Positions 770 through 37,411 of a stretch of 37,577 nt of DNA are shown in pieces. Where the stretch lies: assembly GCA_030698625.1 (NCBI GenBank), contig JAUYMS010000036.1:1-37577 (forward strand), read 5' to 3'. Position numbers and translations under genes: made by a program. The notes beneath the pieces were generated by a model. The model did no database searches. It had not been told where the DNA came from and saw only the letters and a list, made by a program, of their open reading frames with translations. Every line of letters starts with the position of its first letter. Positions within the stretch are counted from its first letter, which is position 1. The DNA comes from Candidatus Omnitrophota bacterium (GTDB lineage Bacteria; Omnitrophota; Omnitrophia; Omnitrophales; Aquincolibacteriaceae).

Positions 770-841
770 CAAAAGCACGCTTTGAATTGACCGACATAAG
801 GCAGTAAGTCGTGAAGAAAAAGTAATCACAAGGTGCACAGG

Positions 842-1573: not shown

Positions 1574-1585
1574 TGCCGCTATAGT

Positions 1586-3647: not shown

Positions 3648-3717
3648 CGACGTATCTTAATAATAGGCGATTCGAATTGCAAGCGTGCAGGTGTATACTA
3701 ATACAAAGAGGCGGGAC
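3648..3717. promoter_or_regulatory. Divergent promoter region mutY-ygfZ / amrS
   Basis: A 70-bp spacer between divergent starts. Rightward there is a -10-like TATACT at 3694-3699 with no convincing -35, and AAAGAGG at 3705-3711 is a good ribosome site 6 nt before the amrS ATG. Leftward the reverse strand reads TATTAT at 3665-3660. If both boxes are used, the transcripts would have very short leaders. This is inferred from box similarity only. Confidence 0.35.
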
Positions 3718-6328: not shown

Positions 6329-6433
6329 ATGATAACCAAACGCTTTATCACATGTCACGAACGCCTGTGTTCTCTACTCACGCTGTTCTTTTTTTGCGTG
6401 AATACATTCGCCTTTCCCCTGGCCGCCCGCGCG
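6329..6433 (+). other. Sec signal peptide of the giant protein
   Basis: The first residues MITKRFITCHER carry positive charge. A hydrophobic core, about LCSLLTLFFFCVNTFAFPLA, follows, and then A-R-A (33-35), a signal peptidase I site with cleavage after A35 or A36. No lipobox is present, so a secreted or periplasmic product is expected rather than a lipoprotein. Confidence 0.9.
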
Positions 6434-9400
6434 GCCGATATAGCGCCGGAAGTATCGGCGGCCGTCTCTCTGAATACCCATACCTTATCCGCTCTGAGTC
6501 TGCCGGAAGGGATCGGCATTGTGGAAGAGACTCACGCCGCGGATTCGGAACAGCTTGTCCTGCTCATAGAAGACGCGCACACTCACTATGAAGCGCAGAA
6601 ATCCATTCAAGGAATGATTCGGCATCTTGCCGAGGCATACGGCATCTCTCAGTTTGCTCTCGAAGGCGCGCATGGCAGGATGGATGCGACCCTCTTTCGC
6701 TGGTTCCCCGACCAGCACGTCGTGCGCGAACTCTTTGAAAACTACATGCAGCGCGGTGAAATCTCCGGTGCCGTAACCGCCGCGGTCGTCAGTGGTCAGC
6801 CGCTTGATTTTCAAGGTATGGAAGATCCGGCGCTCTTCAACGCGGAGATCGAGGCTTATCTGCGCGCCGGCGACCAAACTGAGGTGCTTAACGGACGGAT
6901 CTCTCCTTGGCGTGCCGATGTTGAACACAAGAAGCGACAATATTACTCCAAGGAATTGCACGAATTGGATGCCCGCTGGAATGAGTTTGAAAACAAAGAT
7001 TCCGACGGCGTCGAGTTTCTCGAATATCTCTTCTCGAAATATTCCGCCACGGCTTATACCAGCCTGAACGTCATCAAAAACGAGATCGAGCAGGGGCATC
7101 TTGCAGGCGGCTTAGAACTCAAGCGCGAACTCGAAGGTCTTGCGGCAACGGTCGGCGAACGGCTTCGCGATATTACGGCCCTGGCTGAATTTCACTCAAA
7201 GAAGCAGGCTTACGATACTCAGAACCTTGAACCCCAGGAGTTTGCGCGTTTTCTCGCCGAAGCCAACCGGGACCACGCTCTGGGATTAGCGCTCTCCGAA
7301 GGAATTCAATCGACGGTCGAAAACCGCAGTCTCTTTCGAAAGATTAAAAGCTCCGAGTTTGTCCTGGAGCTCAATGCGATGATCAGTCAAACCCTCGATT
7401 CTTTGGCGGCTTCAGATGAGGCGAAGGAAACGGTACGTGAGGCAAAGCGGCTTCGCCTAGCCGAAAAGCTTATTCGTTTGGAGCTCTCCAGTCACGACTG
7501 GAAGGAGTTGGGCGTGTTACCGGCGGATTCACACCGCGGGTTAGCGCTTGAAGACCACCGGCGCTTCTACCGGCTCGCCGAGCAGCGGAACGATTCGTTT
7601 CTCGAAAATATCGTGCGGATTCTCGAAGGCCGTCCCGGCAAACCCCTTGCGGTCCTGGCCGGAGGTTTTCACACTCAGGGTTTGAAAAGCCGCCTCCGAG
7701 AGGCGGGTATTTCATATGCAGTTCTGACGCCGGCCATCACCCGGCTTTCCGAAGAAGGTCGCTATGGCAAAATTATGCGCGGCAATGTTTCGTGGAGGGA
7801 CTATTTCCGTATCAAGAATGGTTCGGTGAACCTTTACGATGCCTTTACGGAGGCGTCGGTGATGACCCTCATGGAAGACGGCGGCCGCGGCCTGCTCAAA
7901 ACGTGGCGCGACAATGTCATCACCGTTCTTGCCAAAGAGGGCAGGTTAAGCGAAGCCTCGGAATACACCCGGTTTATTGATCACGCGGCAGCACGCACCA
8001 TTAGCCGCGGCGACTTTGAAAAGGTCCGGTCCGAGTGGAGTGCCAAGATCGGGACTTTTCTTACCGGTCTAAAGCACCTTGTCGATGGCGGTCAGCTTAC
8101 GGAATCCAAGGTCGCGCAATTGTTCTCAGTTTCGGGCGCGTCTCCGGTAACCGACAAACCCCTTTTCCGGACAGCCGTCCTGAGCGGGGCGCTTTACCAG
8201 TTAATGCTATCAAGCCGCACCCCTCCGGTCGGCGAGCCTCACCGCGCCCGTTCTGAGTTAAGAACCGGCGAGCCGCTCGACATCGATAACGCCGTATTTA
8301 AAGGTCTCTTTTCGCTGCAGGCGGCAGACGAAGCCGAAGAGAGTGCGAGCAGCGAAGTTGAATTTGTGCTTGCGAAGACGGATGCCGGGCAAAGCGCTAT
8401 TACAGTTTCGGCGGCAATTACAGAAGATGCTCATTTCGAAGACTCGCTGCAGGATGAGTACACGCGGTTGCTTCTCGATTTGCATGTCAGGCACCTCTAC
8501 ACCCCGGAGGAGATTTCAACCTTTCTGGGGCTGGTGACGACGGCAACCCACATGAAAGAGACCGCACGGCTGGTGATCGAGGGCGGCAAGGCCCGGGTCG
8601 TTGTCAGCAAAGAGGTGTTGGGACAGGCGATTGATCAAACGGCTATGCATGCGATCTTACTGCGCGAATTGGAAGTACTGCTGAGACGGGGTCTGTATTT
8701 GTGGAGCGCTCCGGCGGACGTGCGTGAGGACGAGACGCTCAGAGAAGCCGATACGAGACGAAACCTACAGCGCTTTCTCGAACAAGACCATGAAACGCGG
8801 AGCAGCGAGATCGAGTATCTCAATGCGCAGAAGCAGTATGATTCCGGCAACCTGCGCAAGATTTACGCCGAGGCCCATGCCTCTCTCGATGGGCGTCTAA
8901 AAGCAGCCCCCGGCATGACTCAAACGGAACGGGCGGCTGCTGTTCGCGAGATTACGGACCGGGTTTCAACTCAGGCGGCCGCCGGCGCGGAGGAAAGCAC
9001 GGAACTATTTCATGCGGCAAAACAGGTTGAAGCCTATAAACGCGGCGGAATATTTACCGGCGCGACAGCAGCGGATTTCTGGCAGAAGACGACCCTCGCG
9101 TTCCAGCGCGGGCTTGTCAATCTCCTGCGCGAAATCGTCGAGGAGGTAAGGCGCCAGGATGTCCTCGACGAATTCCGGAAGCAGCTGCGCGAAGAGACGG
9201 GCGGCGCCGCGGCCGAGACACAAACGTCGCTTGAACGGGATGTTGAGTTTGAGATCAAGGCCCATCAGTTGCTGCGCACTAACTTTGAACGGACCTACAG
9301 TCATGCCGATCCCCAAAGCGGGGAAGTCTATAGTTTCACGCTCAGAACGCTTCTGGATTTTTATCAAACCGAGTGGAATCTCGTGCGTGAAACGCAGGGT

Positions 9401-27400: not shown

Positions 27401-30400
27401 TTTGACGGGAAGGAAGCGACGGGCGAAGAGATGGCGAATTTTGAGTCTTTCGACCACGACGTCAACGCTTACTACGACCCTGAGGCAGGAAAATACGTTC
27501 GCAGAAGCAGCCGCGACTTCGTCATTCGTCGCGATGAAGATATGCTGGGAAATGAATTTGTCAATATCGGTAATGCAATCGCGGAGAAGAAAAGGTTGGG
27601 CAAAAAACTGACTTCGACAGAAAAGACTTTTGACGGGGTCGGCGCGGCTGTGAGCGTTGCCAATGTCTTGGGGAACCTTAGGCTTGCCGAACTCTCCAGG
27701 TTGGAGACGATGACCATACGGTTTCTCGTAACGCTTGTCCTCGGGTCGCCGAAGCTCGGTTTTCCGGGCGCGGTTATCGAGGAAGTCGAGATGCTGGACC
27801 GGTATATCAATCTCCATAATACGCCCGCCAGGGCGCGGCTGCTCAGTTTCGAATTGCTTCGCAATATGAGCGGGTACACCACCGAGACGGGAGCTATTCG
27901 CGATCTTTATGAGAGGCTCTATCTACCGGCCATGCGGCGTCAGGATTACAATGCTATAGGGATTCCCGGGATTCTGTGGGAACTGCAGATGTTGGAAGAG
28001 TGGAGTCATGATGAGGAACGTCCCGAGGAGGAAAGAAGGCTCGCTGCGAATATGGCCTATTCCTATCAAGTCGCTCTGGAGCAGAGATTTGTGGGAAAAG
28101 ACTCCCTGCCCGGCGACTTCAGGGAGGCGTTTCAAAAGGGCCTCAAGAACCCCGTAGTCGAGAGACACATTAAAGAAGGGACGAAGACGGATCGGATTCC
28201 CAGAGAGCCCGCTCAGTTGGCAAAAAAACTTCGCGACGAGACTTATTATGACGAACTCATCCGGATGATGGAAGAAGACCGCGGTGTTCTCCGCGGTTTG
28301 AGCGACGGCGTACTCATGTTTCCGGGTGATTCGGTCTTTAACCATGAAGAGATTCGCAACGCGCTGACACGAATGAGCCGTGAGGGGTCTCCGAATGTGG
28401 TTACAGCCGTTTGGTCTTTTGTCCTTGCCTACCGGGTTGTCCGCGAGCTGACCACAAAGCGCAAGGCCCAGGATGTCGATGACTTCATCGATCAGATAAT
28501 CACGGATCTGATGACGCACGATGGTTTTACCAACCCTGCGCTGCTTTCCGATCTGGCTTCACGCAGTGCCGACCTCCGGGAAGTTCATGGCCTCACGCTC
28601 ATGAATAGGGGAAAGGATCCGGCGAAGAATCAGGCGGATGTCAATCGCCTGGCCATGGCCCCGTTGCTCCGGGCCGCAAAGGCAACGTTTCATGAGGGCC
28701 TCGAACACGGTGACGAAGAGCATCAAGAACTGCTTAATTACGAGGCTGCGGAAACGGCGTTACGCTTTGCTGCGATGCAACTCGGAGCGAGCGATGAATT
28801 TCTCGACGAGATGTTAGAGATCGATTCCGATGATATCGAGCGGCTGACCTTTTTCGAAAAAACCCTCGCCGGAAAGAACCGTTACCTGGATACCTACCGC
28901 GTAGTCATGGAACAGGAGCCCAGATACCTTCAGCTTCGTGAAGGCCTCAGCAGTGTGCGCTCCGAGCTCAGAGCCTCACCTTTTTCAGACGCAGACATTC
29001 GTGACATTCTGGGCACCGACTATGCAGAGATCCTCGAAGCCCTGCTTAGCGACCCCGCCACTCGGGCCAAATACGAAACAAAAGTACCTATCGCGGCCAT
29101 GCTTCTGGCGCATCGCGCACATAAGATGCTCGATGAAGATGCGGCTGCCTTGGTCCAGGCGAACCTGCAACCGCTTAGCGGGGTATCCGAGACGGAATTC
29201 GACGAGCGCATTAAGGGGTTTCGAACGGCACCTGCTGAAGAGAAGCCCAAAAAGAAAATCAGCGCCGGCGCGCCGGCCGAATTTCGTGACGGAATCAAGG
29301 CCATTAATGAAGCCAAGCGGGCTAAAAAGAAGGTCTGGCAACTGCCCGAACGTGATCGCATCACGATCCGGTATATGTTTCAGAATATTCTCCAGGAAAA
29401 TGACGACAAGACCCGAGCCTCGATGGTTCGCGAACTCAAAGCCTTTGTCGGTGATAACGAAGACCGGGCGCAGTATCTGATACCGGTCATTCACGAAATG
29501 GTGGTCAGAAAATACCCCGAGAAATTTTTTGAGGATATTGAGAGTCTTGTTGCCGTCGCGGCCGATAGAAAAACTCAGTCGCTCATGGATGTTTTTACGA
29601 CGTGGCGCCGGTTGGAAGAGGCCATGCAATCGGCTTCAAGCCCGGTGGAACAGGCAACCCATTATCGGAGCGCGACGACGCTCTTCCGGGATTTGCGGGC
29701 CGGGTACTCGCAGCCGGGCGTAACTTTCGAAAATCTGCTTCATGAAGAAGTTCAGGACGATCGTTTTAAGTGGTACGGCTATGAGAAACCCTATGTCTCA
29801 CGGATGGATCAAGGCCTTCGCGATACCCTGACTCCCGCGACGCGCAATATCGTGCTGGGCGTTTATACGGGCATTGAGGAATCGAAAAATAAAGACGCCG
29901 CGGAGCAAGCGGCGGTTATGGCAAAGATCGGTAATTCGGGCGCCAGGATCGTCATGATGGAGAGCTTTATCGATTTTAATATACCCGCAAAAAACCGCGA
30001 GAAGGCGATATGGCTTCTCGAGAGAATTGCCAAGACGGCCGAGAGCGTTGATGAAATTCACGTCTTCGCCAAGGTGTTGGATTATCTGGATAAAGACTTG
30101 GTGCGCGAAACCGCGGGCTTCTTTGTCGCGAGCCTTGACGCACTGTTGGAGAAGCCTGAACACCGGGCACGTTTTGCCGAGATTACGCGGGAAAATTTCT
30201 GGTCTCGCAGCTTATGGCCGGGACTGTTTGCCTCCGACCAAAAGCTCAACGTGGATCTGAAGACAACACTCATGGATCATCCCAATATCCGAAAGGCGCT
30301 CTTGGCGCAGGCAACAAGCAGTAATCCGGTAATCGCAGCGCACCATGTGGCCTTGATAATGGACTATGCGGTATTAGCGTTGGCGGTTGACCCGAAAGTC

Positions 30401-33400
30401 GCACCGCAGATGGAAGCCCTCGTTACAGACCTGTTTGTGAACCTTTTCGAAAAATTCGGTTTCGCGCCGAGCGGATTTATGTCGCAGCTTGATGAATACG
30501 CGACGCACCATTCTCAGGAATTTAGCGACATCTATCTCTGGCTCGGCAAAGCTGCCGAGCATGTCTTCCGGAAGGCCTTGCGCGAAGGCAATTTCAAGAA
30601 TGCCCAATATGACCGCTTTCGCGGCATCATACAAGGGGACGCGGCGCTCGCGAAAATCCCTACCTTAGATAAGATTTTGAATGACCCGGCCGCCTTATCA
30701 AGCAACCGCGAACTCTATGAGCGCATCATGCGCGAGGCTAAAGAGAAATTGCAGACAGATGCGATCCAGGCGGATCTGCGGACGATCACGGCCGATGCCT
30801 TAGATCGGTTTGAAGCTATTTTTCTGCGTGCTCCGAAAAACTTCAAAGAATTCTTCGCCATGATTTCCGAAAGGGGTTATCTCGAATTCCATCATACTCT
30901 GCGTGACTATGATCTCAGCCCAGAAAGTGACCTCGCTCTCGAGTTTGAGGATTTTTATTATCAGCACATTCAGATGCGGGAGATGGAAAACACGTTTCGC
31001 GCTTTGGGGCAGACGGCGATTGCTCTGGGGTCTGACGAAGGGGAGTGGTATTTTGATTATGCGCTTCCTCTTGAAGGCGGCCGCAAGGTCCGCCTGGATG
31101 CAGTTCAGGTCAAGGGCGGAGAAATCGCGCGAGTCCACCTATTCAGCAACGGCCGCCTCGGCAAGACGGACCAGGAGTATATCGATTCCACACTGGGGAT
31201 TCTGCAGCAGCTCACCATGGCCCAGCGCGCAAGCGGTTATGTCACCGGCGAATTTCCCCTCACTAAAAATACTCAAATCTACGTGACCCACCTCGGTTCG
31301 GCTCTGAACCTCCTCGAGCGCTACCGTGGCTGGGTGCGCGGTATGCAAAACGAATTCAGTGTGCGGGTTGATTCTTTGGAAAGGTACGATACCATCGACA
31401 AAATCATCGCGGAGATTCGCGATAATCTCCGTGCCGATGAGCCCGCGGAATTTGCCGAGACGCTGGAGGTTCTGATCCGAGAGATCGGAACTCTCATGGA
31501 GGATAAGTCGCCGGCCGAACGCCAGGAAAGCATCCGCAAATGGCGTTCGATTAACCTGTATTTACAGACACTGCGCCTTCGAGACGGAAAAAGGATCGGG
31601 GTCGGCACTTCGAAATTTATGGCTGCCGGGATCGATGCGGCCGTCAAGGCGCTTGATGCCCACGGTGACATTCCCGTAACGCTGCCGGCATCGTTGAGAA
31701 AACAGTTTCGCATCGACAGTGCAGAAACCATGGGGCAGTTGATCGACCTGCTTTTTTCGAAGGATGTCAGCAGGCATCGGGATCTGCGGGCCGGACTCGC
31801 CGCTTTGTTGGAAGTGCTGGACGGCCTGCCCGCCGAAGGGGACACGATTACTTACAGGCAAGCGTTAATATTAGGAAAAGCTAAGCAAGAGATTTGGGAT
31901 CCGTTCGAACGCGCTTTTGATGACTTAAAAATCGATCCAAAGGATGCGGGCAGATACCAAAGAGCAGCGGATATTATGAACACGATGCAGACGAAACCGG
32001 GTTTTGACGGCAAACCGTTTGTCGAGGGGTTGTTTCCGCCGCTTTTCGGGCTGCCTTCTGACCGCCCGGGAGAAGAAACCCGGACGATTATCGGACTTGT
32101 TGATCCTGACGGGGCTCATTACCGTGCATCCCAACATCTTCCGGGCACTTATGTGAGCGTTGCCGATCCTGATACTTCCCGCACATTCAGCGGGACCGAT
32201 GATATCTTGAAGAATCTCGAATCCGGATGGCAGATACTGACGGTACCCTATAACAGGGACCCCGGTTTTCAACTTACATTGGAGCCGAAAGATGTGATGG
32301 TTGTGCGGCGGTCGGATGTCGAGCGCCAAATGCTTTCCGAAAAGCTCGCTGCGGTCGTCGATCAGGCCGGCGGCAGTACCGCTGCCGCGCAGCAAGGAGT
32401 GGCTACAGACTTTTATTATGACACCGAAGCCGGTGAATATCGCTTAACCAACGAACGCAGTTTCAATTTCGAGAATCGCGACCGCATCCCGCAACAAGTA
32501 GCGGTTCGCTTTCGTAATATTCCGGTGGATACAAAGACAATGCGGCCGGGCCTTATTCCGAAGGGAGATTTACCTTGGGCGAATACGCTTTGGGGCATGG
32601 AAACGGGCAACGCCTACAGCGATGTACCCGTATGGAATTTGAGCGATGATGAGTACCATGAAATCCACTCACGTGTGCGAGCGCTCTATGCTGCCGCCGA
32701 CAAACAAGAAAGAGAGATCTTAGCCCGTCAGCTTTATGACTACGTAAAAGCACGTAACTACATGAGCCGGCGCCTTGAGGCGATTGTCGCGCTGCAGTTG
32801 GTTCCCTATGAGGGTGATTACGAAGTGGCCCAGGTTGCGGAAATCGACGGGATCGTGAGCCCGCTCTTTTATATGTTCGTAAAATCATCGTTTGAATCGA
32901 TACAGGAGATCATCGCGCTGGAGGAATACATCCAGGACCCGAGTACCTCGGCCGCCGGCAAAACCATCATGATGGGAGTCTTGGCGAGCGATGTTGAGCA
33001 GTTAGCCATCATGGACAAAGACGTCCGGCAGGTATTTCAGGGTCTTAGAGCGAATCCGAAGATTGCATGGCTGACATCCAATCTCGGAGATGACTTAAGC
33101 GAGTACGCCGCGGAGCGAAACGACATTTCGGTGCAGGATACCAAAGACATGGCTGCTTTAACGTCGGCAGTGATCAAGGCAACTCAGGACAACGAGGACA
33201 AAAAACTGCGGCAGTTCGAGGAGAAGTCCAAAACATCGCGGGTGCTGCGCATGACTGCTCTCGGGCCTTTGGAATCGGCGATGGATGAGCCCGGGATCAA
33301 AGCAAACCAACTCAGAATCATCGGCCGGGCGATCGGGCTGCTTGCCCGTAATGCAGCCGACTTCGACGAAATTTCCATGTATTTGGACCTCATAGGTTAC

Positions 33401-36400
33401 GGAAATGTTTCGGATAAGCATCACCGCTATATATCAGAACCGCTTCTGGCCGCGGTTGAAGAGAGGCTTGCGGATCCCGTGCAAAGACGGCAGTTTGACA
33501 AGCATCTTCGTGTAAATTTCTGGAGGAATATCTTATGGGCGCGTTTGCTGCAGGGATCGAATCAGGGAATCACGGCTGAATATCCAAATATCACACAGAC
33601 GATTACCGAACTCGTCGCCAGTGAGGATCCCACTCTGGCTTTTGAGGCACTGCAGATTGTTTTGCAATATAGCGACCGGCAGGGGAAAAAAGGCGAAGCA
33701 CTCTTGCGTGTCGCTTTTCTCAAGATTTTCGGGCGCTATGGTTTTGATAGCGAGCATTATGTTCATCTCTTTCATGCGGCGCTCGTCAACTATAGCAGCG
33801 CCTATCCGATCATGGTTGAAGCCATGGCCCAAACCTTCCGCGAGGGTTTACAAACCATGGATGTCAAATATATTGATTATCGCAAGGCCGAGCGATTGGT
33901 CCGCATGCTTGTGGGTCCGGGCCGTAAGAATCCCGACAAACTCCTTGGTATCGATTCCGAGGATCCCGCCAAGAAAACTGTATTCGACCGTGTTCTTGAT
34001 GAAGCGATTCTTGATAAGGCCGTCACCTATCGCGACACCTATAACGTTTTTGTTGAACGATTACAACGAAACTTCTACAGATTTATCACGCGTGAAATCG
34101 AGCATTTTGAGGCTGAGCACTTTCGATTCCCGGATTTTGACGAAATCATCGGCAACATCGGTGCTCACGGTACTTTTCGCGGAGCGGGCCTGACGCAGGG
34201 GAGTTTCTACTACGAGCAACTCCGGCTGCAATATGTGCGGTATGCCTACTTGCGCCAACGCGAGAAGACATTTAGGCGCATGGCCCAAGTGACTTTTTTT
34301 GTTGCGAACCCCGCATTGGATTTGATTTTTGATTACGATCTAAAACTTTACGAGCCCTCCGGGAGCGGTGCCGTTCAGCATCACCGGATTGATATTGCCG
34401 TTCGCGAAAACAACAACCTCAAATCCTTCAATATTTTTACATCGGGGTTGGAAGATGTGCCCTTTAAAGCGAGTCCGCAAAAGGAGTACGTGGACACCGT
34501 AATGGGGACCATTGCCTTAGGAAGCCGCCTCAGACTCGAACCCGGTGCTATGGTCGATCGCATCCCGATTCAGCGTGCGGCGGGTCTGACGACCCAGGTG
34601 GATCTGGTGCCGGCCGTTAATTATCTGGCGGAAACCAAGGTGCTCGGAACAGGGCCGACCGCCAAACGAGCCAGAGACTATATGGACCTGGGGAATTTCC
34701 TGGAGACTTTCGTAAGGCCTCAGATCCCGAAGACCCAGGAGCACGGCGAAGACACTTATAATAAACTGAGGGCGTCCTACCGGTTTTTACAAGATGATCT
34801 CTCAGAGAGAAACTTGAACGACGCCGGGGATCTGGAAAAGAGAACACTGGAATTAGAACTTGTTGAAGCGGCCTTCATGAAGGCGCGCATGGCAATGCAG
34901 GTCAACAAACAGCAGGGGAACACGGCGCCATTCGTGAAGATCCTGGACCAAGCGCTGGAAGAGACCGTCTTGCCTGCCATGACCGCTGGTGCCCGCGACT
35001 ATGCAAAGAGCGCGCGGCTTGCCGGACGGCGCGGTGTCATTGCGCAGCAGAATTTTACCAATCTCGTAGGGGACGCGAACCGTGATTTCCCCATAGCCGA
35101 TCGGCACAAGATTCTCGAACAAAGTACCCGGCAGATGTACGCGCCGGGGGCCGTGGGTGCGGCAGGGCAACCCTTGAGGATGGCGCTTTGGGGAATCGAA
35201 ATGGCCAATGCCTATTCCCAGATCCGTTTGTGGGAAATGGACGATGAGAAAAGAGAATATATTGCCGGAACTGTCCAAAACCTTCTTACTTCGGAAGACT
35301 TCGATAAAGACTATGAGGGATTTGAAGAGTATCTGATCTTAAGCGGCGACGCCGGCATGAATTATTATTTCCAGGCCTTTGCGGCTTTTCAGGAAGCCGT
35401 TTTTACGAAGGACTATCCGCTTGAGAATGTGGTGCGGCTTGACCGTAAGCTGAAAAATGCGCCGAAGGAGCTGTTCCCCGGGCAGGCGCCCCATTTGCTT
35501 TTCCAGTTCATGCAGCGTTTGCAGGAAGCCATTCGGGCCGGAGAAACAAGCCCCTATGAAAGACAGGTCTTCACGGTTCTGAATATCCAGCTATGGAAGG
35601 AGTTGCTGGGTGATTTTCGTGCCGAAGGCATTCCAGCTAAAGAACGCATGACGGAGGGCATGAAGAATCCGGCCCTGACACGCTTTATGGGAGATCCTGA
35701 CCTCCTGCCGCCGAATACAGGGGGCGACCTCAAAGCGGCGACGCTTGAAGCGATAGACGAATTTTTGGCGGAAGAGAGAAATCGCGGACGCTTCATGAAT
35801 TTTGTGCGCGCCAACTGGTGGACGCCATGGAATCTTTTTCACGGAGAGGTGGCCAAGGCATCCGCGAAGTCGCCGCTCTTGTTCAACAATATTCGCGCCA
35901 CATTGCTGGAAAGCGCGCTGGATGACGATCCGCAGGTTGCCCTGACGGTCATCAGGATGCTTTCGGATCAGTATTACCATCTGGTCGATGCCGAGCGGCT
36001 GGCAAAGGAGGGGCCTCTCCCGGAAGGGATGGCCGTGCCGTTTGAACCGGCACAACTGGAGCAGGTTTCCTCATTGCTTGAAGCTATAATTCGCGGATTG
36101 ATTCGGAAACACGGTTTTGATATTGAGACCTATCATGTTCATGTCGATCAGGCCGGTCACTATTTGCCCGAGCATCAAACCATCGTCACAGACGAATTAA
36201 AACGTCTTTTCACCGAAGAATTGCAGATGGCGAGGCCCGAGAAATCCCGGCTGGATTATGCTAAAGCGATTCGCTGGTTTACGGCTTCGGCGGCGTCGAC
36301 TGACGCGGCGAGCACCGAGTCCGCCCGGGCGACAACGGAGAAACTTTTGGAAACAGATGACGGGCGCACCTTTTTCGACCGTATTTTGGATGAGGGCAAG

Positions 36401-37411
36401 AATCGCGAAATTTACGATGCGGCTTTCGCGCGCAGCGAACTCAGAACAGAAGTTGTGAGTGATGCGGTTGTATCCGAAGCGGAGCTTTCCGAGACGGCAA
36501 GATCTTCGGCCGGCTTTCTTTATCTGGAGCGCACGCCGCCGCCCGCCGAGCTGCGTTCTCTTATCCGCGTGGTTCGAGATGCCCCATGGCGCAGTGTCGA
36601 AGGCGCGTTTCGCGTGCTTGTCGATCTGCCCGAGATTCTCGCGGCACAGATTCTTTTCGGAGCAGGTATTGGGGCACGCAGCCGCCACGGTTTGGATGAG
36701 CGCTATGAGAAACTCCGAAACGATCTCGAACGCCTGCCGCTTGAGCAAATCGGGTTTCAGCAGAGCGGTGCGGCCGATGTCGTCTACGTGACTTCCGAGC
36801 TCCCGCAAAAGGGCCTCCTTCTTTCTGTTTTGAAGACCATGCCGTCTACAAACTTACTGGTTATCGTTGTTCCGCCGAAAGGTTATAACGAGGCCTCGCC
36901 CCTCACTCTTCAGGCGACGGTCGATCAAGCGGACGCGTTAGAAGCGGAGTTGAATGCCGGGCTTGATGGAAAGCGGGTTCATATTGAGGTGCCTAAAACT
37001 CGGGCGCGCGCAAGAAGCACTATTCAATACGCCAAGCGGACTCTCTATGGCCTGCGCGGCCGCGATAGTGAAACCTCCTCTGCCGAAGCCGTTCAGGACC
37101 GCCTGGTTTACATTCACCACGAGGAATTGCTCAGCGTGGAAGAATACAGCGCGTTCGGAGAATATATCCGCGATGCGAAGTCGGTATCTCATCGCTTAGC
37201 GAATGGCGATAGAGACGCGTTTGGAAAGCACTTCTTCCTTTTAAAAGGTGCGGCAGATATTTCCCAGCAAACACTCGAAGGGGTCATGCACCGCATTTTC
37301 CGCGGCGAGCGTCACTATACCTATGAGGACAGCATCGTCAGCGCCGACATGCTGGCTGCCATGATGTCCGCCGAAGCCGACATCGCCGCCTACCTCGCCG
37401 CCGCCGCGTAA
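6329..37411 (+). CDS. Giant exported multidomain repeat protein, 10,360 aa, function unknown
   Basis: A single uninterrupted frame of 31,083 nt, roughly 1.1-1.2 MDa. Order of parts: Sec signal peptide (1-35); TIKI/ChaN/EreA-like domain (about 76-470); helix-rich stretch (471-1344); tandem modules (1345-2050); degenerate methyltransferase-like fold (about 2230-2490); linker (to 3441); six divergent solenoid units (3442-10034); alpha/beta C-terminal domain (about 10040-10360). Reading the whole translation, the only cysteines are C9, C14 and C23, all in the signal peptide. No transmembrane helix, LPxTG, beta-barrel, PEP-CTERM or polyketide/peptide synthase motif is evident after the signal. RSELR recurs at residues 641, 4809, 7544 and 10035. 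Giant ORFs are known from Omnitrophota, where roles in attachment or predation have been proposed. The export call is well supported; the function is open, with a scaffold or adhesion role the best guess. Confidence 0.9.
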   Translation: MITKRFITCHERLCSLLTLFFFCVNTFAFPLAARAADIAPEVSAAVSLNTHTLSALSLPEGIGIVEETHAADSEQLVLLIEDAHTHYEAQKSIQGMIRHLAEAYGISQFALEGAHGRMDATLFRWFPDQHVVRELFENYMQRGEISGAVTAAVVSGQPLDFQGMEDPALFNAEIEAYLRAGDQTEVLNGRISPWRADVEHKKRQYYSKELHELDARWNEFENKDSDGVEFLEYLFSKYSATAYTSLNVIKNEIEQGHLAGGLELKRELEGLAATVGERLRDITALAEFHSKKQAYDTQNLEPQEFARFLAEANRDHALGLALSEGIQSTVENRSLFRKIKSSEFVLELNAMISQTLDSLAASDEAKETVREAKRLRLAEKLIRLELSSHDWKELGVLPADSHRGLALEDHRRFYRLAEQRNDSFLENIVRILEGRPGKPLAVLAGGFHTQGLKSRLREAGISYAVLTPAITRLSEEGRYGKIMRGNVSWRDYFRIKNGSVNLYDAFTEASVMTLMEDGGRGLLKTWRDNVITVLAKEGRLSEASEYTRFIDHAAARTISRGDFEKVRSEWSAKIGTFLTGLKHLVDGGQLTESKVAQLFSVSGASPVTDKPLFRTAVLSGALYQLMLSSRTPPVGEPHRARSELRTGEPLDIDNAVFKGLFSLQAADEAEESASSEVEFVLAKTDAGQSAITVSAAITEDAHFEDSLQDEYTRLLLDLHVRHLYTPEEISTFLGLVTTATHMKETARLVIEGGKARVVVSKEVLGQAIDQTAMHAILLRELEVLLRRGLYLWSAPADVREDETLREADTRRNLQRFLEQDHETRSSEIEYLNAQKQYDSGNLRKIYAEAHASLDGRLKAAPGMTQTERAAAVREITDRVSTQAAAGAEESTELFHAAKQVEAYKRGGIFTGATAADFWQKTTLAFQRGLVNLLREIVEEVRRQDVLDEFRKQLREETGGAAAETQTSLERDVEFEIKAHQLLRTNFERTYSHADPQSGEVYSFTLRTLLDFYQTEWNLVRETQGDFAAGDLGHYVLSRLGMDRPAPISDFHDPERIHVWRNDMPERELKEIEKIADLIEYLAGDAAQGKMGHDWDERAVTLKSVPARTVVELLESNILRSKWLASQGKNGNYNQFGVFSALGFTTSGILSKTNEEVFAIVEVASALRSLQKYPEYYAAFIQPALQGQPLGDVRKLPLAARIDIAHQILDRDERVDDPKFREQRGLIVKDDLRSRVFPKIFLGHLREIFYWKSLLLKVLAKMESAEQEKTAAGEMARRLTERDYAAPAVLRGKGGIITHLLTYVRDDAGSILYEDKHPFLGKSKTYESENDLYVWQADPEVFLRRRLDIDDRISERTYYRDENPVLRVQVRASTGTVTGVSVIEADPAHHKDGVAPPDVLLSGIYPRGLAKRDLTFDPGWTLEDWSTHLISETREEEYTAPPKKVKRTLEFADIAEPRTYHLEIPESEIPKDVVETGTVTAVEVFGQHAKDKKTTYVDLIEANQTREFDARDKQTNSPEFWDEIMQEGVFKDRPRQRTFYDTSKRGRTLLLSLHMNDEGHVVRIELPEGSGTTVIQPAPAELVFEPGFSVKDWHDYLEMAYEWKPAGEVETAAKKEKSVGGKREPRIYHYDVAKPKRGASKDDTATVTGAEYFFGDENRADLMYGDYHEAAREHRFDPKDKKASAAGFWKALDDDGVFRENPSRSSIYRVDGDERMPFIVSTIDPETEIVKQVDWYVDGIKRTVIPEELKFSAEWGPGEWTKYFTEHATTVTRMERVTAARKQIVVPSGLMLNPEATAGELGQYIDENHPLGKQKTERAGVEVKVQSFEKTDTPRVFHYEVPEPEGDNLTVTGMEMNGEHAARPEEYYGDFYDVTSDWASITVNLQQEKEAQGIAYWEELAAADVFKATPSHRTYYSKQTKKPLLAVHYDSETQRVTHIDISGDRGRLTSTTWLAAAAEVTFDETHTAADWQQILTEKPIQRHVLYNEREQETVVLNFPDASGQSASARYIRTGHERRTLYEYPESTLEGLGKFNPLEMTYADWRALYEPYYSEEADETALNRRLASVDEKFKKLAADVRQAAQFYEQRLRGQDVEAEPSFARRIERRIIEDILEPGLLGLMGEEEMRSDEVRARLLLTIRLAMADEVLPLLGLNKTAMDELLTDIFHADDTFQARAIHGDDVRDTGNAVAVPEAAVTDGDAEIFIEGIHAKEHATGLDRARELVTSTPNNLGRKMRRLKQIEEMLSPILTAHLKRISKYAARAVDYQGSLGDVVHSNTSSAWQSAIWLVEYLRENYGVFPEVLDEDTMSMVFAALRRKDFDKESMPGHLTDQQSHKILAATMRDDKDPERWNANVIRDRNLTQMAGEEEHQGKYDLVTSIFTMNDLVNARGHAEVVQKVRDTNRVLKPGGLWAITMAGSKGFPPRAIEQIEAHGYEVEVQGVGFNDLRGQYYSQLIQQGTRERNAIFLRNQVTRRQFYVLILRKVQELPADPAIIPHDDIVVAAVRTPGEAPDIDGGTLEDQDKVNVYSNADREELLRDTLPIHLRGAPLGPSDLADADDLEPMLYGGFGRREADQWRLKEYQNKLAMIRRYIAFLIGPEGKVRNTTEREEVEDLLNRTFRGETSLREHDKVSKRIQTQRGRVQNNREGEAKKRELLQEYLNSFWTDGKDLWQLTLKEDGIFTVNDSDGKPALSVSYVRVSDNRFRAVRVFYHHTDKEGKIFYSEPRQMHRDVKEQDHDMFDPLSEEAHTVTFWQNKEGRREDGALYSRRIDLMARNQVYERIDHVFALLQGRAGQEVYPAIRHFGEDFESLFTDDVATIMYENRNDERLFPYAEQREFIEDVFLAWRTASRIITHGDENNPQETQQLLALRERVKDFRRAFPEYQVGRDTSARRLEGHAAAETEKHGGFEGGIPAFLAGVLAAERREEKKNEISGEGERFKSLDLDAGGGGLLWGMSVNGITPPNGTTDQHFELDKSEGNLALTRPRGYESTKNGGPVTQIVGDPTRPAAALGKQHQDEPFNWLSVLHSRELLNPASAKRLFVGANQVTALLGEVYLTLPKDWQVSEDLITGLRRLGFVLSFPSQNATRKVTGEFRRALIDYYTVGQGRDIFMAGQRQSAAEAIAERVTNAIEGDFRVLVIKKTRHLNLEDEDVVRQVQSVPPDLFKIEGDDLPVQTAPKGINPLEYDQTAIKMEIETIKWLSERWRHNNIEVTYEEDDLIDHDEVEDLFPGFRAAIRHLYTFRAVYSGKGTFSAFHKLIWNNYFLWKGGTEKYKRRDIETLQRLYRDGIPTGSDNFSRFTQKWLLDRMAERAEDLRSGKYEKSFEENHRLGAETEAVAARLQEKLTEFHALHENHAVILSEEDRKLFEMLHRADGATAQVFTLERLIWIEKILDDPETKKREKLFRFVDNARERDLPRRPAKKKAEQAPKKALEDKPAPITAELLQQEHIKRDIFAISGKVIERLKARDQGYLGAQLLVDHKPHEFPSFYDFHIAVISSRELAAHPDLRGAVTTLQGKELFSDPRMQETLKGVDQDRFEMSTAKADIGTDELKEGAPLYKALQANYLRQKFFHAHQNAVRSLAQFMVTVANPNAEVRHDVYLPVGDENQFLDSVVLNAKGEIEEAYQIEQGFLDTNLHDNPKRAAADTIMGLKLNWDRIKADPSLTSDAVRFAEDSRYFLSQFSPYPGVIMQSNWFGEPGSEAAEKSDFDGLMRALLEKAFPGDAKKKEGIEAVLKTVRDAFIMTDLNRPEILEHASKVFNAIHSQLNMARLNLDAEQKKQRAEGQRLEPQSRAIDVELKAALALIIAGQRGGAQYDQIIQAQEMNFRSAAERAGDFFGRSTETYFDFTQGKYVPRDELVLPIQPRSEVLRDTSEEVKLKSVHGELSAADSDFVRLETSYRIINTYSEVDMWQMDPAEKEVLMRGVRRVMEAANTAEREERAGFLERYVRLRNTVARQQQVYLALRGGSYTFADIPYDQIRLAFDAIMKHVSDLTRSKKSTNAEILTFAQRDAEILEKATLSHQERVVAMVEQNTAFRKTPYGSQAPYARSDDEDLYRSRITNPKLAAYGDHHRVVDYSALPYDSNPQKALAKIHGEVSKILDATGDFPSDEESEFMRYLTENAAVRTAALADLVFRAKQRSFGDTDRVAQFMDEILTRVQDIKEHISFITLVYDTAIKDDNEFPFYGAALNLIFKAMNGLITKEGHIDRLMTWLAEKITNKAYFTHLLLTVAKSAPSLTTITYSAESPVLQALSREVTGDDPVRSVLAAHVLVEVDKLAKGLGQEMREATSTVLARATVAIIEKYGLEFEKYQSILQAIYADQIKEKFPIIMGIALQAYRNELSKKEEDRRTSHLARDNFFGGTRYFYANHGLPESDFKKLLEVESDERNAFDRIEDETVERAAYGGVPREYWYRPEVQRELYNIVDEIVRNFLQMPPYEYPFFDDVAKAALGGDLIGEHPILGRAFTHDLNKHLRLPYLRHRLNQGIEETYRALGQYVVRLAHPESEIIYDARIRVKDAQGKTRNLLLDAVNVKDGIQDIWLFQSGKVDPSQVDGRHEDNVFGLLQTFVSLVQEPDASPDIRFREDAGLNVGFLDPQSNDIDVSTYPGLSSENSASLNGLEALIDRLPGDDAANGVRKEKLKKLLQYLRDLAGVTSQLSPKELEDATVQAVLLKQALTYTKIGIDFDLRQLEPQVEKRSLSQMVADSQQETVDILDSIVFPLIGDPSTDLEPRSSLKQFDSEKRGEGLRSVIANDLTGGRFEERYKDIMANYYQFSDDAGEQGYKKLAERDFAFEDMKRTRNLLRSELRSAFDELPDPLKAVVTQAKSRAKSGRPLWRVSDEELHETEDKLLAIVEAKSDSVRRAAVKALKTYMSADNTANRELLYFIKFAHLAHIADFSQDGGWQDRLRKSRELLSVEHPYRQDPEVLMLQYQTIPEALEDTRLSHQNKVHLLSYMVGDFFTILGGKQALAEPFVRALKEETGDSRFSILWTDDPNEWAARLPDLKDITHIDSVDEIFHMTYRAALLEDSFFFTESGPILDRLEELLGQDQKHRDDFIDSIQHNTWRAGFWMELLMADPDKGFFAKPNIRRTLREAVAGGDPRRSYMALRLVQTAYNKLSQEKSAELSQAVSFQEEIIEELMKTHGLNMERYHEFAFSYVFSLGEELRLDRLKTLAAIAQATLEEGLAEGDITKADYLAVEQFLLRAVALLRLDKTESDAILGVKSGKNRFSRVLAKKGNQKKYDSLIRLGGAKFAFLRERHMQQDLFALVGQSILGYELKSRAFPELEAVIGNFQRAASGPLAQMMGASLQPVLTGLSIEKGTPLYEQIRLQYLRHRYLRALKDSFRGLGQYQIRVVHAPEDVKFNYVVRSDWAGEEGTVDTQVFDTVIIGKDGSIDNRTTFGLGRTPLSFMDQPDMDYISHEAGNTLNNIRISDAAPRSSVHAGATIAPGALSADLHPNPELFRGTSDFFYNMPPPGAPDVSVWKNYIEMVAGTDSATGAEPEFIRAFETLQELTAVAEETDSEKLAHALDAVEAARDAIYISRVQADVHIREYQAANPGQSIFSQAESIRRDLGYMQEALEAAKSGESKRLAELKREFRATIDDIRKKGGKGQRYEAFHGDINAYYDYEKGGYVPEKERDFTRYGEEGLLRRELTEIAALIEHGTISRRPMKREGNYLAKPEMMIDLANVMGRTRLFVLDPAEEKTVRELVAGILASPDLIDQKGDIQEVNKLREYVLLRNRLVRKNLVIYEFGRAVAMGRYAAEQVRLANDAINGIANDNSLTDGRPLELFQELQVLEEWARDERRDPQELAVMRVRASNYHKAVWQHYINKGYEDIDAILSKRLTNPYLARYSGHRENLPAVYGDPDALNTALASESTYSGFRVFVRDYDWTLYVIFTGLKKKDPAKSLLDYPHLARALQRIMDDEDPGLAITVFPFLLVHQQDFQKISPKKADALRIFIDSIILQLFRLHGFEVGKYFGLAMNYALSLHGREKGGLPHPRDIEPMTEFQEGDFRPFILSAVKVFEEGLQDRDPRKVDYEAAENLLRALALQFRASEEYLDDLLDIDPTDPERKTFFERILANNREYLQAYREVMGKEPRYLRKKSGAAVRRQKRELKEGELPQELEEVLWYAQTISASDEIQWRMSLEETDEIKAVMTSIFTASSEKERKARAASLERYVLSGNTRNRRLIAEDTMRRLLQIGDFELPATGRQLGRILSLIRTSLANTDDPFEQVVYIHLTSQALEDFSLGHQTYRNFLSYRNGQFAGLVPQHLREYKDAFEREFTRRVTAENFADFRKPAVEDIAYTVDHDAFSDTGHVLAYIKMRDAASKDGFEAKFGKVIATEAGRWAVLRNMSGTAGEKAPGDFGRKIAGRVIAAMTSVDEVYNAGLLMMERDSAFLSSLSEPLLERLEQMLADDKDKSAKKAFLDSLTAGSNLSVVWYNLLLGDRHQLRAGYPAVKTVKTFLDYPHLRQIMLEALVSERPRDAFYSHNVLVAAASIFTAESPEMAAQFDRFADDMFRAVFNKYGFNTEDYYVLLYKYFISVSRGEHADKRLQAFAKIAEKKFRDGIAKRDPMVFDYHKIEKYLKRMIALEGMDAAAANRVLGVEKGTNRFERVLAEGRNQKRFNELAARTLNLETTSMQQEMFSLVGSVIREFEDEEFKTPTWDEVFGRIRDQGLHKVLIFVKRLGLKEGGPLYEQLRLQYWRHRFLAQMEDTFRAIGQYHLRSMTSSGNTIRWNYIQTTHDVASIDSPSGGEVYGGVQKQVYDVVLLDEDENITMKFNFRNGFLPFSYVPEPEVAYVRRHLGRTANLLRTDHVARDTALFGNNGKEQSALTFDLNSGEQFFESAGAPFGAVAVPEAGEVIRGTTDWESFVSSFGQDVQDVNEEIRKKYVELHGELRKFLAFGEEKNPDVLASVVDALEFAQGMMDINREEFEVRVKLHTEKYSRQLEGQDLGIYMKREGIERDIGLVSTILQVAQQGKWDTVENGVREMRRTIQDIARGKKTIAGIDFDGKEATGEEMANFESFDHDVNAYYDPEAGKYVRRSSRDFVIRRDEDMLGNEFVNIGNAIAEKKRLGKKLTSTEKTFDGVGAAVSVANVLGNLRLAELSRLETMTIRFLVTLVLGSPKLGFPGAVIEEVEMLDRYINLHNTPARARLLSFELLRNMSGYTTETGAIRDLYERLYLPAMRRQDYNAIGIPGILWELQMLEEWSHDEERPEEERRLAANMAYSYQVALEQRFVGKDSLPGDFREAFQKGLKNPVVERHIKEGTKTDRIPREPAQLAKKLRDETYYDELIRMMEEDRGVLRGLSDGVLMFPGDSVFNHEEIRNALTRMSREGSPNVVTAVWSFVLAYRVVRELTTKRKAQDVDDFIDQIITDLMTHDGFTNPALLSDLASRSADLREVHGLTLMNRGKDPAKNQADVNRLAMAPLLRAAKATFHEGLEHGDEEHQELLNYEAAETALRFAAMQLGASDEFLDEMLEIDSDDIERLTFFEKTLAGKNRYLDTYRVVMEQEPRYLQLREGLSSVRSELRASPFSDADIRDILGTDYAEILEALLSDPATRAKYETKVPIAAMLLAHRAHKMLDEDAAALVQANLQPLSGVSETEFDERIKGFRTAPAEEKPKKKISAGAPAEFRDGIKAINEAKRAKKKVWQLPERDRITIRYMFQNILQENDDKTRASMVRELKAFVGDNEDRAQYLIPVIHEMVVRKYPEKFFEDIESLVAVAADRKTQSLMDVFTTWRRLEEAMQSASSPVEQATHYRSATTLFRDLRAGYSQPGVTFENLLHEEVQDDRFKWYGYEKPYVSRMDQGLRDTLTPATRNIVLGVYTGIEESKNKDAAEQAAVMAKIGNSGARIVMMESFIDFNIPAKNREKAIWLLERIAKTAESVDEIHVFAKVLDYLDKDLVRETAGFFVASLDALLEKPEHRARFAEITRENFWSRSLWPGLFASDQKLNVDLKTTLMDHPNIRKALLAQATSSNPVIAAHHVALIMDYAVLALAVDPKVAPQMEALVTDLFVNLFEKFGFAPSGFMSQLDEYATHHSQEFSDIYLWLGKAAEHVFRKALREGNFKNAQYDRFRGIIQGDAALAKIPTLDKILNDPAALSSNRELYERIMREAKEKLQTDAIQADLRTITADALDRFEAIFLRAPKNFKEFFAMISERGYLEFHHTLRDYDLSPESDLALEFEDFYYQHIQMREMENTFRALGQTAIALGSDEGEWYFDYALPLEGGRKVRLDAVQVKGGEIARVHLFSNGRLGKTDQEYIDSTLGILQQLTMAQRASGYVTGEFPLTKNTQIYVTHLGSALNLLERYRGWVRGMQNEFSVRVDSLERYDTIDKIIAEIRDNLRADEPAEFAETLEVLIREIGTLMEDKSPAERQESIRKWRSINLYLQTLRLRDGKRIGVGTSKFMAAGIDAAVKALDAHGDIPVTLPASLRKQFRIDSAETMGQLIDLLFSKDVSRHRDLRAGLAALLEVLDGLPAEGDTITYRQALILGKAKQEIWDPFERAFDDLKIDPKDAGRYQRAADIMNTMQTKPGFDGKPFVEGLFPPLFGLPSDRPGEETRTIIGLVDPDGAHYRASQHLPGTYVSVADPDTSRTFSGTDDILKNLESGWQILTVPYNRDPGFQLTLEPKDVMVVRRSDVERQMLSEKLAAVVDQAGGSTAAAQQGVATDFYYDTEAGEYRLTNERSFNFENRDRIPQQVAVRFRNIPVDTKTMRPGLIPKGDLPWANTLWGMETGNAYSDVPVWNLSDDEYHEIHSRVRALYAAADKQEREILARQLYDYVKARNYMSRRLEAIVALQLVPYEGDYEVAQVAEIDGIVSPLFYMFVKSSFESIQEIIALEEYIQDPSTSAAGKTIMMGVLASDVEQLAIMDKDVRQVFQGLRANPKIAWLTSNLGDDLSEYAAERNDISVQDTKDMAALTSAVIKATQDNEDKKLRQFEEKSKTSRVLRMTALGPLESAMDEPGIKANQLRIIGRAIGLLARNAADFDEISMYLDLIGYGNVSDKHHRYISEPLLAAVEERLADPVQRRQFDKHLRVNFWRNILWARLLQGSNQGITAEYPNITQTITELVASEDPTLAFEALQIVLQYSDRQGKKGEALLRVAFLKIFGRYGFDSEHYVHLFHAALVNYSSAYPIMVEAMAQTFREGLQTMDVKYIDYRKAERLVRMLVGPGRKNPDKLLGIDSEDPAKKTVFDRVLDEAILDKAVTYRDTYNVFVERLQRNFYRFITREIEHFEAEHFRFPDFDEIIGNIGAHGTFRGAGLTQGSFYYEQLRLQYVRYAYLRQREKTFRRMAQVTFFVANPALDLIFDYDLKLYEPSGSGAVQHHRIDIAVRENNNLKSFNIFTSGLEDVPFKASPQKEYVDTVMGTIALGSRLRLEPGAMVDRIPIQRAAGLTTQVDLVPAVNYLAETKVLGTGPTAKRARDYMDLGNFLETFVRPQIPKTQEHGEDTYNKLRASYRFLQDDLSERNLNDAGDLEKRTLELELVEAAFMKARMAMQVNKQQGNTAPFVKILDQALEETVLPAMTAGARDYAKSARLAGRRGVIAQQNFTNLVGDANRDFPIADRHKILEQSTRQMYAPGAVGAAGQPLRMALWGIEMANAYSQIRLWEMDDEKREYIAGTVQNLLTSEDFDKDYEGFEEYLILSGDAGMNYYFQAFAAFQEAVFTKDYPLENVVRLDRKLKNAPKELFPGQAPHLLFQFMQRLQEAIRAGETSPYERQVFTVLNIQLWKELLGDFRAEGIPAKERMTEGMKNPALTRFMGDPDLLPPNTGGDLKAATLEAIDEFLAEERNRGRFMNFVRANWWTPWNLFHGEVAKASAKSPLLFNNIRATLLESALDDDPQVALTVIRMLSDQYYHLVDAERLAKEGPLPEGMAVPFEPAQLEQVSSLLEAIIRGLIRKHGFDIETYHVHVDQAGHYLPEHQTIVTDELKRLFTEELQMARPEKSRLDYAKAIRWFTASAASTDAASTESARATTEKLLETDDGRTFFDRILDEGKNREIYDAAFARSELRTEVVSDAVVSEAELSETARSSAGFLYLERTPPPAELRSLIRVVRDAPWRSVEGAFRVLVDLPEILAAQILFGAGIGARSRHGLDERYEKLRNDLERLPLEQIGFQQSGAADVVYVTSELPQKGLLLSVLKTMPSTNLLVIVVPPKGYNEASPLTLQATVDQADALEAELNAGLDGKRVHIEVPKTRARARSTIQYAKRTLYGLRGRDSETSSAEAVQDRLVYIHHEELLSVEEYSAFGEYIRDAKSVSHRLANGDRDAFGKHFFLLKGAADISQQTLEGVMHRIFRGERHYTYEDSIVSADMLAAMMSAEADIAAYLAAAA
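6554..7738 (+). other. TIKI/TraB/ChaN/EreA-like domain of the giant protein
   Basis: Residues about 76-470. A strand ending in I-E-D-A-H-T-H (E81, H84, H86) is followed by a long helix. F-A-L-E-G-A-H-G (E112, H115) comes next, and near the end A-V-L-A-G-G-F-H-T-Q-G-L (H448). This spacing of early E/H, then EG, then a late GG-x-H on a strand resembles the ChaN/EreA/TIKI superfamily, some members of which bind metal or haem or act as hydrolases. The likeness is by motif pattern only; an enzymatic role is not shown. Confidence 0.5.
7739..10360 (+). other. Helix-rich region of the giant protein, unassigned
   Basis: Residues 471-1344 are rich in Glu, Arg, Ala and Leu and look mainly helical. They hold the first RSELR (641), which closes the N-terminal part. 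After it comes a stretch (about 650-850) with TAMHAILLRELEVLLRRG, which has the feel of a decayed metalloprotease-like helix but lacks an HExxH motif. No family was recognised. Confidence 0.4.
8249..8263 (+). other. RSELR peptide copy 1 (residue 641)
   Basis: Context R-A-R-S-E-L-R-T-G. It lies at the joint between the N-terminal half (TIKI-like domain plus helices) and the next segment. The codons differ from the other copies, so conservation is at the peptide level. Confidence 0.75.
10361..12478 (+). repeat. Tandem modules of 170-210 aa, about four copies, probably beta-rich
   Basis: Residues about 1345-2050. Shared landmarks recur in order: RTYY (1355), RTFY (1536), SSIY (1703) and RTYY (1912), giving steps of 181, 167 and 209 residues. 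Each copy after the first is preceded by [FY]W-x2-[LI]...V-F-[KR] and followed by a strand such as LLLSLHM or LLAVHYD. In each module come F-x-P/E...DW-x2-[HY]-[LF], PR-x-[YF]-H-[YL]-E and TVTG. The pattern suggests short strands and a common fold. A further partial copy with FWTDGKD...KPALSVSY occurs near residues 2664-2690 (about 14,320-14,400). No family name is offered. Confidence 0.65.
13016..13798 (+). other. Degenerate class I methyltransferase-like domain in the giant protein
   Basis: Residues about 2230-2490. The central part reads YDLVTSIFTMNDLVNA (from 2374), then EVVQKVRDTNRVLKPGGLW (LKPGG at 2406-2410), then strands ending in FYVLILRKV. This is the second half of a Rossmann methyltransferase (motif IV acidic-hydrophobic strand, then LKPGG). 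The glycine-rich motif I is not evident upstream, where AVDYQGSLGDVV stands in its place, so SAM binding is doubtful. The helical stretch before it (2051-2229) is unassigned. Confidence 0.55.
13799..16651 (+). other. Linker region of the giant protein, possibly a second decayed Rossmann domain
   Basis: Residues 2491-3441. It contains the stray FW...KPALSVSY module, then LDLDAGGGG (2944-2952), which looks like a motif I loop, and about 100 residues later PKDWQVSEDLITGLRRLGFVLSF, which could be the late strands of a methyltransferase-like fold. A Lys/Arg/Pro/Ala-rich hinge (RRPAKKKAEQAPKKAL, about residues 3420-3435) leads into the first solenoid unit. Confidence 0.35.
16652..19558 (+). repeat. 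Solenoid unit 1 of the giant protein (residues 3442-4410)
   Basis: Begins with LLQQEHIKRDIFAISGKVI. The A landmark PLYKALQANYLRQKFF...RSLAQ follows, with the aligned Tyr at 3568. The B landmark is YFDFTQGKYVPRDE (Tyr 3847). A W-x-MDPAEKE helix pair and Y-x-x-LRN (landmark C) come next, then a HEAT-like run of helices. Landmark E (the FFxRIL element) is absent or unrecognisable. This is the most divergent unit. Confidence 0.6.
19559..22114 (+). repeat. Solenoid unit 2 of the giant protein (residues 4411-5262)
   Basis: The A landmark is LPYLRHRLN...TYRALGQYVVR (Tyr 4482), followed by a strand-rich stretch with LLLDAVNVKDGIQDIWLF. RSELR (4809) lies just before landmark C (PLWRVSDEELHE). HEAT-like helices follow, and landmark E reads ILGVKSGKNRFSRVLAKKGN (from 5226). 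Helical pairs carry W, L and DP turns as in HEAT repeats. Confidence 0.65.
20753..20767 (+). other. RSELR peptide copy 2 (residue 4809)
   Basis: Context N-L-L-R-S-E-L-R-S-A-F, inside solenoid unit 2, between the B position and landmark C. It is encoded with codons different from copy 1. Confidence 0.75.
22115..26272 (+). repeat. Solenoid unit 3 of the giant protein with internal duplication (residues 5263-6648)
   Basis: Starts with MQQDLFALVGQSI. A: PLYEQIRLQYLRHRYLR...SFRGLGQYQIRV (Tyr 5339). B: YYDYEKGGYVPEKERDF (Tyr 5633). C: NVMGRTRLFVLDPAEEK...LREYVLLRN. HEAT-like D region. E: DIDPTDPERKTFFERILANN (from 6075). Then C, D and E are repeated (W-RMSLEETDE...LERYVLSGN near 24,790; second E VLGVEKGTNRFERVLAEGRN from 6616). 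The joint between the two halves has a degraded RSELR-like QKRELKEGE. Confidence 0.7.
26273..30754 (+). repeat. Solenoid unit 4 of the giant protein with internal duplication (residues 6649-8142)
   Basis: Starts with MQQEMFSLVGSVI. A: PLYEQLRLQYWRHRFLA...TFRAIGQYHLR (Tyr 6717). B: YYDPEAGKYVRRSSRDF (Tyr 7048). C: NVLGNLRLAELSRLE. D, then E: MLEIDSDDIERLTFFEKTLA (from 7495). RSELR follows (7544), then a second C (KKVWQLPERDRI) and a second D with VDEIHVFAKVLDYL and W-SRSLWPGLF. It has the same plan as unit 3, and the two are the closest pair. Confidence 0.7.
28958..28972 (+). other. RSELR peptide copy 3 (residue 7544)
   Basis: Context S-S-V-R-S-E-L-R-A-S-P. It sits after the E landmark of unit 4, at the joint to its duplicated second half. 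The equivalent site in unit 3 reads R-R-Q-K-R-E-L-K. Confidence 0.75.
30755..34045 (+). repeat. Solenoid unit 5 of the giant protein (residues 8143-9239)
   Basis: A: FEDFYYQHIQMREMENTFRAL followed by GQTAIAL (Tyr 8210-8211), then the strand pair VRLDAVQVKGGEIARVHLF. A long insert with VLDGLPAEGDTITYRQALI precedes B: YYDTEAGEYRLTNERSF (Tyr 8696). C: METGNAYSDVPVWNLSDDE. D: W-RNILWARLL and YGFDSEHYVHLF. E: LLGIDSEDPAKKTVFDRVLD (from 9205). Confidence 0.65.
34046..36430 (+). repeat. Solenoid unit 6 of the giant protein (residues 9240-10034)
   Basis: A: FYYEQLRLQYVRYAYLR...TFRRMAQVTF (Tyr 9302). B is weak (RQMYAPGAVG). C: IEMANAYSQIRLWEMDDEK. D: W-TPWNLFHGEV and HGFDIETYHVHV. E: LLETDDGRTFFDRILDEGKN (from 10006). 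The fourth RSELR follows directly. This unit is compact and ends the repeat array. Confidence 0.65.
36431..36445 (+). other. RSELR peptide copy 4 (residue 10035)
   Basis: Context A-F-A-R-S-E-L-R-T-E-V. It marks the exact end of the solenoid array and the start of the C-terminal domain. Confidence 0.75.
36446..37408 (+). other. C-terminal alpha/beta domain of the giant protein
   Basis: Residues about 10040-10360. Alternating strands (ADVVYVTSEL, TNLLVIVVPP, KRVHIEVPK, DRLVYIHHEEL) and helices suggest a three-layer, Rossmann-like fold. No catalytic motif was recognised. The end is Ala-rich (AAYLAAAA), with no sorting signal or membrane anchor. The last codons run into the downstream repeat, so the natural C-terminus may have been altered. 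Confidence 0.45.

Follow-up and report, generated by a model that had tools for sequence, protein, structure and literature searches.

Cysteine-free giant proteins with a strict border peptide in an Omnitrophota genome: a family of candidate secreted polyproteins

The stretch of DNA analyzed here, hereafter the window, comprises 37,577 nucleotides of a Candidatus Omnitrophota bacterium (contig JAUYMS010000036.1 of assembly GCA_030698625.1) and carries a giant open reading frame (ORF) whose predicted product holds no cysteine beyond its signal peptide. This absence is the property of a family of paralogs and is peculiar to no single gene. The giants of this genome share a layout made of a signal peptide, an N-terminal domain, exchangeable modules bordered by the peptide RSELR, a last module, and a free C-terminus that ends in [A/S]A in 32 of the 41 family ORFs with a stop. 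The explanation proposed here, which to our judgment has an even chance of being correct, is that the giants are modular polyproteins free of thiols that are secreted and then processed at RSELR, a recognition code specific to the genome.

The window ORF was previously described, from the letters of the DNA alone, as a frame of 10,360 residues with cysteine only at residues 9, 14, and 23, all within the signal peptide. The codon count confirms this description, with three cysteine codons versus 102 tryptophan codons and no cysteine codon from position 6434 on, leaving a mature chain of approximately 10,326 amino acids with zero cysteines. That sequence-only reading expected about a hundred cysteines, which is adequate for cytosolic proteins, at whose rate in this genome the mature chain would hold 132, but too high for the other exported proteins, at whose rate it would hold 48. 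With either expectation, a count of zero is far from chance. At the rate of the paralogs, 1.9 cysteines are expected and the probability of finding none is 0.16, indicating that the cysteine content of the window ORF is typical of its family.

The genome has 3.52 Mb in 50 contigs, the window being the whole of contig C28, and the counts of giants given here cover 2.17 Mb of it. Searching the whole genome with the N-terminal domain yielded 72 matches in approximately 45 ORFs, most of them giant, and the domain is common to approximately 40 ORFs of this genome and to most relatives. Taking as giant an ORF of at least 1,900 amino acids, there are 37 giants of 1,900-14,250 amino acids, adding up to 246,182 amino acids, or 21% of the genome; two of these (C44:2-16675 and C26:78961-85089) were missed by the domain model. 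An exported ORF of 6,396 amino acids (C48:149034-168221) that has neither the N-terminal domain nor RSELR was kept out of the 37; it holds 35 cysteines, and those listed are in close pairs. All 31 genomes sampled from the same class, this one among them, have the domain, as do 25 of 67 from elsewhere in the phylum. For the pattern scan, profile A2 was used given that profile A1 was too diverse. In one relative (G041, C37:183561-184973), the domain lies inside an open frame of 35,113 amino acids.

The depletion of cysteine recurs throughout the family. Counting as mature the cysteines found beyond the first 45 residues, the 37 giants hold 44 in 246,182 residues (0.018%), and 21 of them hold none. 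An ORF of 23,959 amino acids from a relative also has no mature cysteine, so that what was noticed in a single gene extends to its paralogs and to related genomes. In the same genome, the rate is 0.46% for other soluble exported proteins (a class assigned by a simple predictor, which includes some false positives), 0.85% for membrane proteins, 1.28% for cytosolic proteins, and 1.08% for small ORFs. In a departure from the earlier account, the other exported proteins of the genome are also poor in cysteine, with 46% of them holding none. This general poverty is what an effect of composition or chance, such as codon bias in the absence of selection, could draw upon. Nonetheless, such an effect is refuted by the cysteine content of the small ORFs, by the normal use of tryptophan in the window ORF, and by the pairing of the leftover cysteines, and its probability is negligible.

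Indeed, 34 of the 44 leftover mature cysteines lie within six amino acids of another one, against a mean of 0.2 for random placement. This is as expected if only thiols that can pair are tolerated and, therefore, supports the action of selection. Such pairing characterizes this genome; in most relatives the leftover cysteines are unpaired, and pairing as a phylum-wide rule was rejected, being absent in G016, G041, G007, G025, G018, G021, and G012. A search for the DsbA family in the window's genome returned one match above the cut-off, and VKOR had no match there. Across genomes, these proteins hold a median of 2.9 cysteines per 1000 amino acids in the seven with no DsbA match versus 1.2 in the 28 with one (Mann-Whitney p=0.002), a comparison that is confounded by ancestry and for which ORFs were sampled from genomes that are in part incomplete. 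Taken together, the depletion in paralogs and relatives, the paired leftovers, the DsbA match, and the higher cysteine content of these proteins in genomes with no DsbA match support a selection against thiols in an oxidizing compartment, in line with the sequence-only reading, which had proposed a steady selection that spares a very long exported chain from incorrect disulfides. While the selection is established statistically, its mechanism would be that the chain crosses or lives in an oxidizing, DsbA-served envelope, where one stray thiol among thousands of residues could misfold or cross-link it. The signal peptide and the loss of cysteine suggest that the giants are exported. The idea that exported proteins avoid cysteine is itself an old one.

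It is clear from the k-mer counts over the giants that RSELR is the one extreme, with 293 copies versus 0.7 expected. It is present in 35 of the 37 giants, with 1 to 18 copies per chain, while each of its single-letter variants occurs at most four times, other orders of the same letters have a mean of 1.0, and only two copies are found outside family ORFs. The motif is encoded by 227 different 15-mers, which means that selection acts on it at the protein level, and a repeat at the DNA level was rejected on this ground. Giants have sequence blocks in common with one another, and 49 of the 112 block ends are located within 30 amino acids of RSELR (null mean of 9.6, with a maximum of 28 in 2000 shifts), and the sequence on either side diverges while the motif stays. 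RSELR is strict, selected as protein, and marks the borders of modules. The residue that follows it is mostly A, S, or T, and the next one is acidic. The first copy is usually found at amino acids 466-760 and the last one 131-448 amino acids before the end of the chain; the window ORF has four copies versus 0.03 expected. In other Omnitrophota the motif takes the form R[S/A]ExR, where the central residue is V, M, L, A, T, or I and its preference varies by genome.

A strict border motif with variable number and spacing may also serve for docking or anchoring, in which case the giants would remain uncut and form a coat or scaffold on the surface, with each RSELR binding a repeated partner at the cell surface. 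In the window ORF, the helical repeats run across the second and third RSELR sites, as in a continuous scaffold, and the giant Omnitrophota proteins have been proposed to act as coat or adhesins (Seymour et al. 2023, PMC10066038). Nonetheless, a docking motif need not fall at module borders, the module families in other giants are mostly enzyme-like, and adhesin domains such as discoidin or laminin G were not found by Pfam in amino acids 1-10000 of the window ORF, which makes docking a rather unlikely role.

The C-termini of the family are also biased. The [A/S]A ending is found in only 18 of 783 ORFs outside the family (p=1e-36), and 36 of the 41 family ORFs with a stop have a final A. Among relatives, most giants whose C-terminus is complete also end in [A/S]A, including one from G048 that lacks the motif. 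The two giants of this genome without the final A (C47:98517-132050 and C18:129-9089) both end near WCYP, with cysteines close to the C-terminus. The C-terminus as a single shared domain was rejected, given that the last modules are mostly unrelated by profile. At the other end, the alignment of 35 paralogs showed H37, E65, and G66 to be invariant and GGFH to be present in at least 90% of them. The AlphaFold model of the N-terminal domain has a predicted local distance difference test (pLDDT) value of 90.6, and its top Foldseek match was EreC 6xcs (E 0.03), with EreA-like 3b55 and HopBA1 also listed and none below E 1e-3. In Pfam, ChaN (PF04187) was the commonest weak match, obtained for 4 of the 35 members with a best E of 0.0014. 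In the EreA/ChaN/Tiki fold, the His, Glu, and His residues have a catalytic role, and the same conserved set is found in the N-terminal domain of the giants. This domain has these residues in common with the EreA/ChaN/Tiki/HopBA1-like superfamily and may share its fold, for which the matches have weak scores; it differs in its long helical insertion and its fusion to giant chains.

The modules were explored with Pfam in nine other giants, over approximately 100,000 residues, which revealed many domains of cytoplasmic enzymes, plus HEAT and TPR repeats. One of these giants (L048, C13:38333-69241) contains, at approximately amino acids 4490-5080 and between two RSELR sites, a circularly permuted enolase with swapped halves and, as judged by eye from the alignment, catalytic residues kept. 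After the next RSELR site there is a NagB-like enzyme without one catalytic Asp, and the same chain has further dehydrogenase and PIG-L matches. An M50-like HExGH segment was noticed by eye upstream of the enolase module. Other module matches in sister giants include AAA, SNF2, and methyltransferases, with DHQ synthase-like and PPDK-like modules being recognized by similarity to genes of the same genome. Recent capture of these housekeeping genes was rejected because the modules are only approximately 25-35% identical to them.

Since these matches are to enzymes that use ATP, NAD, or S-adenosylmethionine, or that belong to central metabolism, the giants could instead be effector polyproteins delivered to the cytoplasm of a prey or host, where the modules would act, the thiols having been lost because the chain crosses oxidizing envelopes unfolded. 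Predatory or parasitic lifestyles have been proposed for the phylum (PMC10066038). Against such delivery, which we consider improbable, the NagB module has lost one catalytic Asp, a large part of the giants has no recognizable domain, and no clear enzyme is recognized in the window ORF.

If the giants are instead polyproteins processed at RSELR, the motif would be recognized by an enzyme dedicated to it in the envelope, the simplest candidate being a protease that releases the mature modules after export; we put cleavage at RSELR itself at about one in two. The C-terminal tail may act as an export or quality-control tag and, more speculatively, the N-terminal domain with its His-Glu-His kept might be a processing or accessory enzyme. 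In its fullest form, the proposal is that a fifth of the genome encodes secreted thiol-free polyproteins in which many modules are former cytoplasmic enzymes, with a dedicated enzyme beyond the inner membrane that reads RSELR (R[S/A]ExR in relatives) and [A/S]A as C-terminal tag. This is put forward tentatively, as slightly short of an even chance. Several observations weigh against the polyprotein explanation. A location in the envelope is difficult to square with the resemblance of many sister-giant modules to cytoplasmic enzymes. The motif is absent from the examined giants of G048 (of the window's own class), G053, and G057, some giants have few sites, with only four in the window ORF, and the flanks of RSELR are merely mildly linker-like. 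The predicted fold of the N-terminal domain is weakly matched (best E 0.03). With respect to candidate enzymes, Peptidase_C11 as Arg-specific protease and the S41 tail-specific protease as reader of the C-terminus had no match, and the search for C25 carries no weight given that no control genome gave a match.

The features of the window ORF are collected in Table 1. The predicted structure of the large helical repeat has a pLDDT of 64, which suggests with low confidence a HEAT/ARM-like solenoid; a family-level fold was dropped because the model is too weak. NCBIfam gave no match in the last 325 amino acids, and no tandem DNA repeats were found. Upstream of the giant ORF, positions 56-3647 of the window encode an FkbM methyltransferase, a sulfotransferase, a GcvT/YgfZ-like protein, and MutY, and positions 3685-6138 an AmmeMemoRadiSam-type radical SAM enzyme split by an intein with a LAGLIDADG endonuclease signature.

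Table 1. Coordinates of the giant ORF and its features in the window
Feature	Position	Strand	Description
Giant ORF	6329..37411	+	10,360 aa plus stop, 31 kb; open frame, ATG start
Signal peptide	6329..6433	+	aa 1-35, ends ..LAARA|AD; all three Cys lie here; cleavage site by eye
N-terminal domain	6470..7801	+	aa 48-491; predicted EreA/ChaN/Tiki-like fold, conserved His, Glu, His
RSELR site 1	8249..8263	+	aa 641, downstream of N-terminal domain
Three degenerate repeats of ~185 aa	10376..12268	+	aa 1350-1980
Weak class I methyltransferase-like segment	13316..13561	+	aa 2330-2411; Methyltransf_12 E=0.011, under curated cut-off
Large helical repeat, ~six degenerate copies	16667..36469	+	~850-1400 aa each; aa 3447-10047
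RSELR site 2	20753..20767	+	aa 4809
RSELR site 3	28958..28972	+	aa 7544, where a repeat copy ends
RSELR site 4	36431..36445	+	aa 10035, 325 aa upstream of C-terminus
C-terminal tail ..YLAAAA-COOH	37397..37408	+	instance of family [A/S]A end

The common layout, with its strict border peptide and tail, provides a handle on these proteins, given that the chains can be parsed into modules, each of which can be searched and expressed singly, and it makes cleavage directly testable by proteomics. Extending over a quarter of a million residues, the loss of cysteine also documents on a large natural scale how selection acts against thiols in exported proteins, and it indicates independently that these enzyme-like chains leave the cytosol. 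A literature search, with preprints outside its scope, found no earlier report of the RSELR motif or of Omnitrophota polyproteins.

Viral polyproteins are cut at repeated short protease sites, and between the modules of the giants there is likewise a short and strict peptide, repeated at their borders, that would serve for recognition. The giants differ in that they are bacterial, probably exported, and present as dozens of paralogs per genome, and in that their cleavage is a proposal. Exported chains of great length with almost no cysteine are also known among secreted adhesins, such as those of the RTX/type 1 secretion system (T1SS) group and filamentous hemagglutinin. The giants share this property, but no RTX, hemagglutinin, beta-helix, or barrel family was found by Pfam in amino acids 1-10000 of the window ORF, and the modules of its sister giants resemble enzymes. 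The closest setting is that of the giant ORFs already known in Omnitrophota, of which there are several per genome, with more than 20 kb, few annotated domains, and a presumed extracellular location (Seymour et al. 2023, PMC10066038), including a protein of 39,678 amino acids in V. archaeovorus (PMC10066038). Their function was considered hard to assess due to poor conservation and few known domains, and the word cysteine is absent from the main text of that work (PMC10066038). The adhesin domains reported in some of them (PMC10066038) are not seen in the window ORF, which at 31 kb otherwise agrees with these giants in phylum, size, occurrence of several per genome, scarcity of domains, and presumed location outside the cell.
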